From the NCBI RefSeq assembly GCF_013087515.1, contig NZ_JABFCN010000009.1, forward strand, positions 186,001 to 250,000: DNA of 64,000 bases, in the 5' to 3' direction. The stretch comes from Rhizobium sophorae. Lineage in GTDB: Bacteria > Pseudomonadota > Alphaproteobacteria > Rhizobiales > Rhizobiaceae. Shown here one piece after another: positions 59,389 through 64,000 of this stretch. The position numbers were made by a program, and so were the translations under genes. The first letter of the stretch is position 1. Every line of letters begins with the position of its first letter. The notes beneath the pieces were generated by a model. It did not search any database and was not told the origin of the DNA. It was given only the letters and a program-made list of their open reading frames with translations.

Positions 59389-60270
59389 TGATGTCCAATC
59401 ATCAAGTAAGGCTCAGCGCGCTGCATAATTTCAGAATCATTGCAGCGCTCAAGACAATTTCCTTGGGAAATTTTTATAATACCTACTCACACGTGGACGG
59501 CCCGAAGGTCACGGTCGAGCGTGGGGAGCGTTCCGCACGAACGACGCCGAACATGTCCGCGGCGCGGTCCTCGCGGTCCCCGGCATCGCCCACCACGCGA
59601 GTTGGCCGTTCACGAATGTGCTGGCCCCCCGCTTGGGGGCTACCATATTCGCACCTCGATCGGTTGCCGCTGGTATTGTAGTTCGGATAAGGATAGTTCA
59701 GAAATGGAATATGCTCACAGCGTTGGGGTTTCAGATCGTCACGCAAGCTCGCGCCAGTCTGGCCCGGTGCTACGGTGAGCGGCTCGCGCGGCTAAGCGGT
59801 CGCGAGCAAGTCGAGTTTGCCATACTGTTAGAGAAGCTCAGCAGCTAAATGTTGATGACAGCAGTGGCGCTGGCTTCCATGCTAGCTTGCTCGGTGCTGC
59901 GAGCAGCCGGTTAGCTCGTCGGCGCACAGTGCAAAGGCGCGAAAACGCTACCTAACGCGCCCACTAAGAGCCTCCCGGGCCTGCTGCCGCCCGCCATGCA
60001 TGGCCTCGTGCTTCTAAATTAGCACCTCCAACGAGAGGCAGCGCAGTTAACCCCGCCTATGTGGCCTCTACGGTATCCGTTTCTACGACACCTGCCTCTG
60101 ACGTCTTTCGCCGCGCTGGATTGCGCAGCATGTATGTCCATGCGGAAGCGTGAGGCACCGGGCCCCGGGCGCGTGAAACACAGACCCGAAGCGAACCTCG
60201 ACAGACTACCGCGATGATCAACGCAAGACGCGGCGACACGGCCTTGGTCGTGCTGCCGAGGGAGGCGGTA
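59389..60270. other. Non-coding stretch with a MarR remnant
   Basis: About 880 bases without an intact gene. It contains an AT-rich patch (59455-59490), a GC hairpin GCCCCC-N5-GGGGGC (59624-59640) and the MarR-tail remnant at 59711. The remainder shows nothing I recognise. It separates the oxidoreductase modules from the ubiquitin-like locus and may be an old junction. Confidence 0.45.
59711..59848 (+). pseudogene. MarR-family C-terminal remnant
   Basis: The frame encodes LTALGFQIVTQARASL, then ERLARLSGREQVEFAILLEKLSS and a stop. This fits the end of the wing and the dimerisation helix of MarR proteins (LTxxG...LS..E...LLxKL). The DNA-binding helices are absent upstream. Confidence 0.45.
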
Positions 60271-60501
60271 GTGGCAGACAGCAAATTTCTTACGCCTGAC
60301 GAAGTGGCTGAACGCTACCGGGGCGGTATTTCGGTTGGGACGCTTCGAAACTGGCGCGCGATGCGTCTTGGCCCGTCCTTCGTCAAAATTGGCAAGGCCG
60401 TGCTCTACCCGCTCGACGAGCTTGATGCATGGGATGAAAAGAATAAGGTGCAGTGCCGTGCATCCAAGGGACTCGCTGAGCACAGGGGTGATCAGACGTG
60501 A
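60271..60501 (+). CDS. AlpA/excisionase-like HTH protein
   Basis: A 76-residue protein starting at GTG (MADSKFLTPDEVAERYRGGISVGTLRNWRAMRLGPSFVKIGKAVLYPLDELDAW). This is a MerR-like winged helix of the excisionase/AlpA type, common as a small regulator in phage-derived and integrative elements. GGGAGG just upstream favours this start over the ATG at 60214. A small frame starts on its stop codon. Confidence 0.75.
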   Translation: MADSKFLTPDEVAERYRGGISVGTLRNWRAMRLGPSFVKIGKAVLYPLDELDAWDEKNKVQCRASKGLAEHRGDQT

Positions 60502-61007: not shown

Positions 61008-61042
61008 GTTAAGCCCGACGACATGTTATCGTCGGGCTTAAC
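61008..61042 (-). terminator. 14-bp perfect hairpin at the end of the ubiquitin-like operon
   Basis: GTTAAGCCCGACGA (61008-61021) and TCGTCGGGCTTAAC (61029-61042) pair perfectly with a 7-base loop. On the minus strand the hairpin starts 2 bases after the stop of the DUF6527 gene. No clear T-run follows, so it may also stabilise the transcript end. Confidence 0.6.
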
Positions 61043-61044
61043 CG

Positions 61045-61482
61045 TCACGATCTGCCGGATATCCAGTCCCAGACCCGCCGCCAGAAGCCTGGTGCCACCT
61101 TGATAGAAGCAGGCTGAACAGAAGGCTCGACCTTTGGCGTCTGCCCGTAGAAATGCGCTTTCGCGGCGCGATCACGCCGCCGCTCGGCTTCGACCTGCTC
61201 GTCACTCCAAGGACCGGCTTCAATCACCTTACCGCAGTCGATCACATAATGTGATCGGCACTTCAAGGTCCAATTGCCAATCGACGGACGAAGCGAGATG
61301 GTCTCGCCGTCAAACGTCATTTTCCAGTCCGTCGGCGTGAAGGGCGTGACGACCTCCTCCCCGCAACCGCAGCAGCAACTGTGGGCCGATGTTGCATATT
61401 CCGTCGACACATAGAGAACGCCTGGCTCCAGGCGCTCGGGGATGTGTTCGACGAAACGATGATAGAGTCGCTTGTGCCGCAT
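61045..61482 (-). CDS. DUF6527 family protein of the ubiquitin-like operon
   Basis: A 145-residue protein (MRHKRLYHRFVEHIPERLEPG). It has the DUF6527 hallmarks: a cysteine cluster HSCCCGCG (His34, Cys36-38, Cys40), LRPSIGNW, KCRSHY (Cys75, His78) and DCGK (Cys83), which suggest a metal site or a catalytic Cys/Ser-His arrangement. In sequence surveys this family travels with bacterial polyubiquitin-like and E1 genes. Its biochemical role is not known to me; a peptidase or ligase-like role has been considered. Its ATG overlaps the E1 stop (TAATG), so it is translationally coupled. Confidence 0.85.
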   Translation of the reverse strand: MRHKRLYHRFVEHIPERLEPGVLYVSTEYATSAHSCCCGCGEEVVTPFTPTDWKMTFDGETISLRPSIGNWTLKCRSHYVIDCGKVIEAGPWSDEQVEAERRRDRAAKAHFYGQTPKVEPSVQPASIKVAPGFWRRVWDWISGRS

Positions 61483-62654
61483 TACGCTAAGTCCCCGTTG
61501 ATCAGCATGTTGCCATCCGTGGTGTAAGTGCAGTGATGCTCGCGCTCGAGATCGCGATAGAACCCGCGGATCTTCTTCCACTTCACGACCGCGAGGATGG
61601 CATTCAGGGCGTTGAGATCCGCGACCTGAATATTGGACGCGTAGATGTCCTTGGCACCGCCGCCGCCGAATGAGATACGCTGCCGGGCGTGATCTCGCTT
61701 CTCCGGCGTGCTGGCAGTCACCCGCAGGATGCCGCCGAGCGAACCATCGTCGAGCTCAAGGCCCATGCCAACATCGACGAACGCGGCACCGATCGCCTCG
61801 AGCTTCTCCACGATCAACCGCTTCGCGTCACCCGCATCGAGGGACAGGAATGCGAAAGTGACGCCGTCAAGGAGGTGGATGTTGTCGGCGCCCAGCGCGA
61901 CGTCGTGCGCCACGATGTTCCGGTGCATCCGGCTGTAGATGCCCTTGAAGTATTCGACCTTCTTGGGCGCCTCTCGCAGTTCCTCCAGGCTCGGAGCACC
62001 CGGCGCGCGAAATGCGTTATGGGTCAGGAACTCGTCACTGTCGAAGAGGCGGATTTCGCGGACCGGCGTCTTGGCGACGAAGTCCAGAATGTAGCCGCCC
62101 GTGCCCCCGCCCCCAATGATGGCGACCCGCTCGTTGATGAGCCGCTCGGTCAGGACACCTATCCCGATGCGATCGGAAGCGGTCTCAACGTAGTTGAAGA
62201 CGCTATCTTCCTCTTGTTCCGGCTCGCGGAAAGTGCGAGCCGTCGTGCCGGGTTTCAGCACTGCGGCCGGACCCGCGATGATGTTCGCGTAGCTAGTCAT
62301 CTTGTGATGGTAGTCGGTGTACCCCCCATCCGGCTTGCTAGAGAATCTGTGCGTCGCTTTCAGGCCGTGGCCGAGATCGAAGGCGCCAGCGGCATGCGAA
62401 ATGCCCTGGATGCGCGAGCCATCGGCGTGGCAGGGGAAGTCGCCGTCCCAATGGACGACATGGGTGTCGGGCGTACGCGTGTGATCTCCGGCGAGCGTGA
62501 GGCTGGAGATAAGGGCGCCGATGCGCACCTCCCGGCGCGCGTCGACATAGGGCACCTCGCGCATGACGAGATACCCGCCCCGCTGCTGGACAAAGTAACC
62601 TTCGTCCAGCAGCCGCTTGAGGTCCGGATTACGACTGAACAGTGCGCGTGACAT
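61482..62654 (-). CDS. ThiF-type E1-like adenylyltransferase with N-terminal DUF6791
   Basis: A 390-residue protein (MSRALFSRNPDLKRLLDEGY). Residues about 1-155 form a DUF6791 domain with THVVHWDGDFPCHADG. Residues 165-390 are a ThiF/E1 adenylation domain: nucleotide loop IIGGGGTGGYIL (181-187 glycines), LFDSDEF, HNAFR (Asn213, Arg216) and FLSLDAGDAKR. It should adenylate the C-terminus of the ubiquitin-like protein encoded upstream. Only two cysteines occur, Cys75 and Cys375, so a thioester Cys in the usual place is doubtful. It overlaps the polyubiquitin gene by 26 bases and DUF6527 by 1 base. Confidence 0.9.
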   Translation of the reverse strand: MSRALFSRNPDLKRLLDEGYFVQQRGGYLVMREVPYVDARREVRIGALISSLTLAGDHTRTPDTHVVHWDGDFPCHADGSRIQGISHAAGAFDLGHGLKATHRFSSKPDGGYTDYHHKMTSYANIIAGPAAVLKPGTTARTFREPEQEEDSVFNYVETASDRIGIGVLTERLINERVAIIGGGGTGGYILDFVAKTPVREIRLFDSDEFLTHNAFRAPGAPSLEELREAPKKVEYFKGIYSRMHRNIVAHDVALGADNIHLLDGVTFAFLSLDAGDAKRLIVEKLEAIGAAFVDVGMGLELDDGSLGGILRVTASTPEKRDHARQRISFGGGGAKDIYASNIQVADLNALNAILAVVKWKKIRGFYRDLEREHHCTYTTDGNMLINGDLA

Positions 62655-63375
62655 TAAACACCGTGCCTTTCTTCTTGACATCAACAGAGCCGCCAGCACC
62701 GAGCTCACCAGCGTGCGGCGTCGATGCCGCGTGCCGGTAAGTCATCGAGAAGACGACGTTGGGTTCGTGCTGGCCCGGGAAGGCGAGTTGGACAATCTGC
62801 TCGAACGTGACCGTGCGGGCGTTCACCGTGCGCGGCCGCGAATTGACGATGATCTCGAACGTCAGCGGCGCGGTGATGAACCGCTCGATGCCTGGCTGGG
62901 CCAGATCGATCAGCTCGCCATGCTCGATCAGGCGATCTTCACCGCCGGGAACCTCGAGGAAGACGGCCTCCCCCTCGCCGGGCTTGGCGAGGCCATAAAG
63001 CACCGTGCCGCTGATGACGGGCTTGCCCCAGCGCAGCTCGTCGTCGTTGAGGGTCAGTTTGAAGTCGCGGTCGGTCTGGAAGGCGATGAAGCGCTCGGCG
63101 CCGCGCTCACGCAGGTCGAACGGCTCGTTGAGCCTCACATCCTCGAAATCGCCCGAGGGCAGGATCGCGACGAGGCTGTAACCGTCCCGCGGGTCGAGTG
63201 CCGCTACCTCCAGCAACTGGCGGCCGAGCGGCACGGGATCGCTCACCACGCGAGGCTGGAAGTTGAGATCGCCCTGCGCGAGGAGAAAGCGATACCCCCG
63301 CGCCGGACGCAACGCCCGGCCTTCGCGCAGGGCGTCGCCGAGATCGTCGTAATCAAGAAGTTCTTCGGTGTTCAT
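62629..63375 (-). CDS. Multiubiquitin (polyUbl) protein
   Basis: A 248-residue protein of three beta-grasp (ubiquitin-like) repeats, roughly residues 26-101, 103-168 and 171-248. The last repeat (FEIIVNSRPRTVNARTVTFEQIVQLAFPG ... GGSVDVKKKGTVFNVT) is the most recognisable multiubiquitin unit. The chain ends NVTRTVQS rather than with diglycine. In bacteria such proteins are encoded with E1-like and DUF6527 genes in putative ubiquitin-like conjugation systems, some of which act in phage defence. Here it is the first gene of that operon. Confidence 0.88.
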   Translation of the reverse strand: MNTEELLDYDDLGDALREGRALRPARGYRFLLAQGDLNFQPRVVSDPVPLGRQLLEVAALDPRDGYSLVAILPSGDFEDVRLNEPFDLRERGAERFIAFQTDRDFKLTLNDDELRWGKPVISGTVLYGLAKPGEGEAVFLEVPGGEDRLIEHGELIDLAQPGIERFITAPLTFEIIVNSRPRTVNARTVTFEQIVQLAFPGQHEPNVVFSMTYRHAASTPHAGELGAGGSVDVKKKGTVFNVTRTVQS

Positions 63376-63437
63376 AAGATTGGGTCCTTAGGTTCGGCCG
63401 AGGCGACGCCGCGGCTCTAAGGGTCCAATCGGAGCGA

Positions 63438-63449
63438 GGTCGGCCGACC
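63438..63449. promoter_or_regulatory. 12-bp palindrome before the polyUbl operon
   Basis: GGTCGGCCGACC is a perfect palindrome in the 81-base gap between the nuclease gene and the polyUbl gene, 63 bases before the latter. It could be an operator or part of a terminator for the upstream gene. Confidence 0.3.
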
Positions 63450-63456
63450 GGTAAGG

Positions 63457-64000
63457 TCAGGCGAACTTTTTTTTCAGGGGGCCATCCGGGGTCTGGCCGC
63501 AGATGAAGAAGGCCGGACAGTTCGGGCAGGTGCGCGACGAAACCTCGGCCGGAAACCGCCCCGCCCGGATGTCGCCGAGAAACTCAATGAGCTTGTCCTT
63601 GCGCCCCTTCAACTTCCGATCCGACAACGCGATAGTATGCGTCTCGCCGTCGGAAAGATGGACAAGCTCCGCGACAGCGCCGGGCAAGGCCTGCTGGACC
63701 GCCAGCATCAGGGCCGCCGCCCCGACATCCTCGCTCTCGGCCGGCCGCATATGGCCCGTGCGAATGTGACGTACGGCACGAACGCCGTCCGGCCGCACCA
63801 GCACCTCATCCGGCCGAACCACGATCTCCTCGCCGCCGAATTTGAGGCTAAGCGCAACGGGCGTCTCGACTGCCGCGCCAGCGCGGTTCGATAGGAAGAA
63901 GCGCAGCATCGCAAGGGCCAGATCGCGAAATTCCGCGCGATAGCCATGGTCGCCCAGACCCCGATCGGCAAGCGCCGCGTCGGTGTGATCCTCTAGGTCG
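63457..64000 (-). CDS. PD-(D/E)XK nuclease-type C-terminus, gene runs off the window
   Basis: The frame is open to the right edge. The 181 visible residues end in SSRTCPNCPAFFICG, a cysteine cluster like the Fe-S cluster end of Cas4/AddB-type PD-(D/E)XK nucleases, often fused to UvrD-like helicases. Upstream the visible part includes LALAMLRFF and a region with VLVRPDGVRAVRHIRTGHMRP, compatible with the nuclease core. The start and any helicase domain lie beyond base 64000. The gene is codirectional with the ubiquitin-like operon and ends 81 bases before it. Confidence 0.7.
   Translation of the reverse strand, partial: DLEDHTDAALADRGLGDHGYRAEFRDLALAMLRFFLSNRAGAAVETPVALSLKFGGEEIVVRPDEVLVRPDGVRAVRHIRTGHMRPAESEDVGAAALMLAVQQALPGAVAELVHLSDGETHTIALSDRKLKGRKDKLIEFLGDIRAGRFPAEVSSRTCPNCPAFFICGQTPDGPLKKKFA

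Follow-up and report, generated by a model that had tools for sequence, protein, structure and literature searches.

The 64,000-nucleotide window analysed here (G000:C88:186001-250000), a stretch of Rhizobium sophorae DNA, carries near its end three overlapping minus-strand genes for a polyubiquitin-like protein (polyUbl), an E1-like protein with DUF6791 and ThiF domains, and a DUF6527 protein. A sequence-only reading of the window took them for a compact three-gene operon. That description has to be widened: the operon continues in the same direction beyond base 64000, where the edge of the window cuts it, and because it runs past this end the earlier reading missed the upstream genes. The three genes are one half of a six-gene unit at this locus; elsewhere, loci holding only the triad exist as well. 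The first three genes of the unit encode a sigma-like protein, a protein of 192 amino acids (aa) and a protein that joins M78 (ImmA/IrrE) peptidase, UvrD helicase and PD(D/E)XK domains (the M78-UvrD protein). We propose, with a probability of roughly one half, that this is a mobile unit in which a protease triggered by DNA releases the sigma-like protein, and the latter then turns on polyUbl conjugation.

In the proposed mechanism the first three genes would act as a switch. The M78-UvrD protein would engage DNA, probably ends or single-stranded DNA related to infection or damage, and its M78 peptidase, thereby activated, would destroy the 192-aa partner, which would otherwise act as an anti-sigma factor. 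The freed sigma-like protein would guide RNA polymerase to sites of the form TTACCGGY-N15-CGAT: one within the sigma-like gene ahead of the genes for the 192-aa and M78-UvrD proteins and one ahead of polyUbl. The polyUbl ribosome site would stay folded in read-through RNA, and RNA started at the motif, lacking the 5′ arm of the fold, would be translated. Finally, the E1 would adenylate the polyUbl C-terminus and the module would attach polyUbl to targets, presumably in defence. More tentatively, we suggest that a private sigma factor with a small regulon runs this ubiquitin-like (Ubl) system: released by a DNA-reading protease-helicase, it would use a promoter inside its own gene and another before polyUbl, an RNA hairpin would keep other transcripts from being translated, and this promoter cassette would also have come to stand before genes of a cyclic-oligonucleotide-based antiphage signalling system (CBASS). 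If this is true, one portable unit combines Ubl conjugation with DNA sensing and with a transcription factor of its own, and CBASS and other immune systems can take over its promoter cassette. The DUF6791 branch of Ubl operons gains a concrete, testable input, in the form of a sigma-like protein with a proposed 27-base target and a peptidase-helicase fusion, and the motif may aid in finding further members of the regulon.

The 27-base motif, TTACCGGY-N15-CGAT, is well supported. The copy upstream of polyUbl lies on the minus strand at 63428-63454 (G000:C88:249428-249454), where it reads TTACCGGTC-N14-CGAT and is a candidate promoter of the sigma-like protein. Of the 39 distinct gaps that precede polyUbl, 36 were aligned; all 36 keep TTACCG and CGATT unchanged around a variable spacer. 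TTACCG-N17-CGAT precedes polyUbl in 54 of the 56 loci that have the UvrD fusion and in 0/16 that lack it; this count took in 72 of 76 loci and required a UBL match, at least 120 nucleotides (nt) upstream and, for the fusion, a UvrD match above 40% identity. Of the two misses, L062 has the motif farther off and a truncated UBL match, and L096 carries TTACCGGA-N15-TGATT. When the spacer of TTACCGGY-Nk-CGAT was freed to 8-23, a length of 15 was obtained in 53 cases and a length of 10 in 4.

Examination of the second copy, within the sigma-like coding sequence at C88:253625-253651 (minus strand) and about 213 nt ahead of the 192-aa gene, reveals constraint at silent sites. We compared its codons in 46 of 48 sigma-like genes (L062 and L063 had no residue match) with the remainder of the same genes as background: Arg is encoded by CGG in 44/44 (background 19%), Ala by GCG in 46/46 (35%) and Tyr by TAC in 43/43 (52%), and the preceding wobble position is T in 45/46 (14%). 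This pattern is largely retained in loci whose sigma-like protein shares 36-53% identity with the one studied here.

The 7.5-Mb genome that holds the locus has three matches to the 27-mer, two of them in this operon, against none for a reversed control; the sole match elsewhere is at G000:C11:43474-43500. In the other nine genomes scanned the reversed control matches 0-5 times each, with listed values of 0, 1 or 2, and genomes without the trio have one or two scattered 27-mer matches each. The locus sequences, 2.8 Mb searched on both strands, hold 98 motif matches versus 1 for the reversed pattern. Among plasmids fetched after the motif had been fixed, the exact motif is present in 4/6 trio loci and 0/3 others, and on an Acinetobacter plasmid (L105) TTACCGAC-N15-CGATT stands at both sites, a parallel change. 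Two Lysobacter loci have an extra copy upstream of the sigma-like gene. In two planctomycete loci (L048 and L052) the motif, with a similar hairpin identified by eye, lies between the DUF6527 gene and an HNH-SAVED gene, with a gene for a DncV-like cyclase next; this is a CBASS arrangement. The CBASS genes occupy L048:11743-14853 and L052:11731-14848, and they include a third gene, which has a weak SEC-C match in L048. Elsewhere, a motif-like site with a spacing of 16 at L059:16709, 329 nt ahead of a gene for a DUF4011-AAA-restriction endonuclease protein (MTES_1575), may be due to chance.

We next consider how consistently the six genes occur together. In 61 loci found via the E1 in genome contigs, by a search that favours close relatives, all six genes are present in 46, always in the same order, and a match to the UvrD protein is present in 51. 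As for the 15 loci without the full set, L018, L036, L043, L044, L049 and L050 end at contig edges, L069 and L070 offer 2.0-2.5 kb ahead of the E1 with no UvrD match there, L056, L064, L065, L066 and L068 have the triad alone despite 10 kb of upstream sequence, and the UvrD gene is partial in L037 and L038. Linkage of the polyUbl, E1 and DUF6527 genes, on which the sequence-only reading depended, therefore recurs in other genomes, in six-gene and triad-only loci alike. In samples not picked by similarity, DUF6791 occurs in 7/385 genomes of the class and 8/398 of the phylum (the present genome belongs to each sample); together these give 14 distinct genomes, 4 with the six-gene form and 10 with the triad only, so the triad occurs independently of the first three genes. 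These proportions, and the tendency of defence genes to cluster in islands, are what would be expected if the triad worked alone, like other operons of type 6e (a class of polyUbl operons discussed below), and the trio were a separate defence module merely travelling with it. We regard this as improbable, given the fixed order in 46/61 loci and the restriction of the motif upstream of polyUbl to loci with the trio. Furthermore, the 192-aa profile matches 3/385 class genomes, and in all three the trio accompanies a polyUbl gene although the E1 types differ: two are six-gene loci, and in the third, L096, the first three genes are followed by polyUbl fused to Prok-E2_E, a JAB-E1 protein and a DUF6527-like protein (the last named by eye).

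The unit also appears to move as one. DNA homology to the contig usually begins at about 61012, near a hairpin that closes the operon, and stops at about 68302, around the start of the sigma-like gene; it extends well past 68302 only in L019 and L051. The six genes adjoin traG on the Cereibacter plasmid pORIO2, and on a Klebsiella plasmid the unit lies beside Tn7-like transposition genes. A relative of the E1 is found in 116/72,556 plasmid records, 9 of which were covered by our plasmid check, and in 0/50,697 phage records. The earlier claim of a mobile region thus holds for relatives, on conjugative plasmids and in a Tn7-like neighbourhood, but the locus itself is only defence-island-like, and the nearest Phage_integrase match, the only one on its contig, is about 98 kb away.

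Within the triad, the polyUbl gene (62629-63375, minus strand) encodes 248 aa with three Multi_ubiq repeats (PF14452 in three stretches, E 7.9e-62). Residues 44-247 match the solved multi-ubiquitin protein 9cd2 (E 8.6e-28), whose repeats we take to be beta-grasp domains, in keeping with the Ubl fold supposed earlier; polyUbl also matches structure 8u38, labelled Ubl-BilA (E 5.2e-21), and matches BubA at E 0.55 only. The E1-like gene (61482-62654, minus strand; best start ATG at 62654, stop at 61482) encodes 390 aa with DUF6791 (PF20590, E 3.5e-60) and ThiF (E 1.7e-6; 27.8 bits, slightly below the cut-off of 28.1). The DUF6527 gene (61045-61482, minus strand) encodes 145 aa in its best reading (PF20137, E 2e-24). 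The E1 and polyUbl genes overlap by 26 nt, and the DUF6527 gene shares 1 nt with the E1 stop codon. A perfect inverted repeat 3′ of the DUF6527 gene (61008-61042; 14/14 pairs, arms 61008-61021 and 61029-61042, 7-nt loop) is a possible terminator, lacking a downstream T-run on the operon strand. Coordinates and Pfam matches accordingly agree with the sequence-only reading on the three overlapping genes, on the perfect closing hairpin and on the families it had recognised by motif; as it had also noted, no E2 or JAB family appears at E≤1 in the three proteins. Past the hairpin, at 60214-60501 on the plus strand, is a small HTH_17 gene.

Conjugation by this triad would depend on the E1, in which the nucleotide-loop glycines, R216 and K232 are conserved in 26/26 sequences. 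Among solved structures its domain most resembles that of BubCD, both by profile (E 1.2e-8, a small margin over the next family at 1.2e-7) and by fold (Z 23.7, root-mean-square deviation 2.7 over 220 aligned residues, a small margin over SUMO E1 at Z 22.1). Both matches cover the E1 domain only; in a fold search with the full-length model the match rows were taken up by E1 folds, and an hhalign comparison of DUF6791 with three Prok-E2_E sequences gave no match. The E1 could instead be non-conjugating, using an adenylated polyUbl C-terminus in the manner of MccB or ThiF for a small molecule, a peptide or sulfur carriage. MccB and ThiF are indeed among the fold matches, the E1 domain proper lacks a conserved Cys (the only one conserved in at least 90% of the E1 proteins is C75, in DUF6791, substituted in L009 and L010), and polyUbl ends in a Ser invariant in 16/16 aligned sequences, with no C-terminal Gly. 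Against this stands BubCD as the closest match in both searches, and we think it has little chance of being the correct account. Conjugation remains our preferred reading, in which the DUF6527 protein would be an accessory factor, perhaps a deconjugase. Its Cys, Ser and His residues are invariant in 30/30 sequences; C36-x3-C40-x37-H78 is present, C75-x2-H78 is invariant, and there is no conserved Cys two residues past H78. The structure model of this protein is confident, with no fold match in the PDB at E≤0.001 (best 0.52), and its profile finds nothing there at E≤5.

Upstream of polyUbl, the M78-UvrD gene enters the window with its C-terminal part (63457-64000, minus strand; whole gene G000:C88:249457-252858) and encodes 1133 aa. 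The M78 domain is matched by PF06114 (E 6.2e-15), the HExxH motif is kept in 22/23 aligned sequences (the region is absent from L037), and four C-terminal cysteines are invariant. Nucleases of the PD(D/E)XK type are expected to show a D-x-K-T-G or (D/E)xK pattern. In 23/23 M78-UvrD sequences the corresponding segment reads R-x-I/V-x-T-G or similar, so DNA cutting is unlikely; the nuclease part has no sequence match in the PDB. The helicase part resembles profiles of Gabija GajB and of helicases from defence-associated reverse transcriptase systems. This resemblance would fit a protein that acts as an effector, attacking invading DNA and tuned by polyUbl conjugation. We hold this to be very improbable, because the catalytic pattern is missing throughout and the motif would be left unexplained.

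The two other members of the trio are encoded directly upstream, on the same strand. The 192-aa gene (C88:252860-253438) belongs to no Pfam family, and the best match of its profile in the PDB has E 0.86. The sigma-like gene (C88:253435-254292) overlaps it by 4 nt and encodes 285 aa. Among 22 sigma-like members, Sigma70_r4_2 is found in 12 (best E 1.1e-6) and Sigma70_r4 in 8, both at E≤0.01, and members match other helix-turn-helix (HTH) families too. The sigma-like protein of this locus has five NCBIfam matches, all to sigma families (best E 3.4e-5). The best PDB matches of the family profile have E 0.4 and 0.74, the latter to RpoE residues 14-66, which bears on sigma region 2.

Our proposal that the M78-UvrD protein is a sensor and that its substrate is the 192-aa protein draws mainly on the triad-only relatives, which carry regulator classes linked elsewhere to DNA damage. 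A separate M78 gene is present in 8/17 triad-only loci (by a profile built partly from those loci); four of the eight are confirmed by Pfam, and three of these four have an adjoining HTH gene. Three other triad-only loci have a weakly matched HATPase gene and a winged-HTH gene, and of the plasmid triad-only loci, one carries a WYL gene and another a pair of ImmA/IrrE and HTH genes. The accessible text of PMC13373217 describes the M78, HATPase plus winged-HTH and WYL classes as controllers of immune operons, Bub included, that respond to single-stranded DNA or damage. In six-gene loci, the trio occupies the place of these regulators.

The last element of the proposal is an RNA hairpin on the minus strand (63378-63430; arms 63378-63391 and 63417-63430), which covers the Shine-Dalgarno sequence of polyUbl and appears to fold away its ribosome site. 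In single-sequence folding, 8/8 gap RNAs exceed the mean stability of their shuffled versions (z -2.0 to -5.0). For the structure named from the window sequence, 85.3% of cells pair, compared with 82.0% in shuffles and 25-56% in slid versions, and seven pairs show double-sided changes compared with 2.4 in shuffles. Over 39 gaps, the predicted mean unpaired probability of the ribosome site is 0.16 in read-through RNA and 0.49 in RNA with an assumed start 6 nt past CGATT, which would open 27/39 sites by more than 0.2.

Several results count against the proposed mechanism. At the RNA level, slid versions of the hairpin give 4-7 double-sided pairs, nearly as many as the named structure, which was itself derived from one of the aligned sequences, and RNAalifold does not find the hairpin in the whole gap alignment; the transcription start used for the opening calculation was an assumption, and with a start 2 nt past CGATT the mean is 0.28 and only 11/39 sites open by more than 0.2. 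The boxes of L106, the other plasmid trio locus without the exact motif, are degenerate, and locus counts are not independent, most of the loci being closely related. For the 192-aa protein no clear family emerges: its match to an HTH profile has a probability of 5%, and there is 1 weak HTH match among 18 members. According to the accessible text of PMC13373217, protection against phage has not been shown for Bub operons. Finally, region 4 of the sigma-like protein of this locus scores 17.9 bits against a curated cut-off of 25.7, none of the 22 members has a Pfam match to sigma region 2, and NCBI labels some orthologues response regulators; this protein may therefore be an activator and not a sigma factor.

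These last points also favour a different use of the motif, as an operator. A sigma-like or 192-aa HTH regulator would bind TTACCGG, which contributes to a palindrome within the motif (ACCGGT), beside an ordinary promoter whose -10 element overlaps CGATT, and M78 would relieve repression as in CapH+CapP. The M78 and HTH pairs that adjoin triad-only relatives are consistent with such an arrangement. We nonetheless consider it unlikely: two boxes at a fixed distance of 15 better fit a -35/-10 pair, and the copy within the sigma-like gene has no obvious role at a vegetative promoter. We infer that the motif is a promoter, read by the sigma-like protein.

The triad itself is already known: it matches operons of type 6e, in their 'domain X' branch, and is kin to Bub. 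Type 6e comprises polyUbl operons, a subset of which has a non-JAB N-terminal domain ('domain X') on the E1 (Iyer, Burroughs and Aravind 2006, PMC1779556). The likeness, as far as the accessible parts of that paper describe the type, lies in a polyUbl, an E1 with an uncharacterised N-terminal domain instead of JAB, and a Cys/His metal-binding protein. Type 6e proteins have one to three Ubl repeats, and polyUbl has three; DUF6791 precedes ThiF in the E1, where JAB is absent at the threshold given above, and DUF6791 would thus correspond to domain X. Of the metal-binding pattern given there, C-x(3)-C-x(35-38)-H-x(2)-C, the DUF6527 protein has all but the final Cys, which is not conserved. The main text of PMC1779556 mentions no UvrD, helicase, sigma factor or caspase, and its section 14 no promoter motif.

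With Bub, this unit shares polyUbl relatives and an E1 domain closest, by small margins, to that of BubCD, in which a JAB domain is fused to the E1. It differs in having DUF6791 in place of JAB (the JAB-type relative in L096 was recognised by the same scan), in lacking a Prok-E2 match at the Pfam level, and in its regulator, a sigma-like protein with an M78-UvrD fusion. DNA-damage regulators adjoin many Bub operons, according to the accessible text of PMC13373217. The CapH+CapP, CapW and CapK+CapS systems treated in that text likewise suggest a parallel, in that an M78 peptidase and a small partner lie here beside a putatively immune operon. The zinc motif HExxH links the peptidase to CapH+CapP, but here the peptidase is fused to a helicase and nuclease part, and where those systems use a simple repressor, this unit has a sigma-like factor with dedicated sites. 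The unit resembles type II CBASS and Bil in the presence of Ubl or E1/E2-type chemistry in defence loci, to which the match of polyUbl to 8u38 may be added; the neighbours scanned at this locus include no CD-NTase, separate E2 or JAB. A literature search found no paper naming DUF6527 or DUF6791 and no description of the six-gene unit, the 27-base motif or the hairpin. These three are new relative to the searchable literature, outside which the central Bub papers lie; novelty relative to the latter is unproven.

The setting of the locus is defence-island-like. A gene that joins a caspase domain (Peptidase_C14) to a Hel308-like DEAD helicase (L002:10359-13370, G000:C88:254358-257369) ends 65 nt ahead of the sigma-like gene. 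Copies 95% identical to it are found in L019 and L051, and relatives at 38% identity lie downstream of it in L013 and further loci, behind the six genes. We rejected this gene as a fixed seventh member, since a CASPHEL match occurs in 18/61 loci and several matches are elsewhere in the locus or weak. We likewise rejected a single conserved gene 3′ of DUF6527, where the genes form small unrelated groups. The upstream neighbours of the unit vary among loci: a caspase-helicase, an AbiE pair, a DEAD helicase, methyltransferases or pglZ-brxL. At this locus, beyond the caspase-helicase, the PADLOC candidate gene PDC-S71 (E 9.9e-117) on the opposite strand is followed by two HNH genes and an AbiEi/AbiEii pair (L002:13904-19648). 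Directly upstream of the sigma-like gene in L071 (1-4164) are the bacteriophage exclusion (BREX) genes pglZ and brxL. A second downstream pair, found at L034:11826-17872 and in other loci, encodes a PD(D/E)XK protein (884 aa) and a UvrD protein (about 1150 aa), the latter 27% identical to the M78-UvrD protein of the unit.

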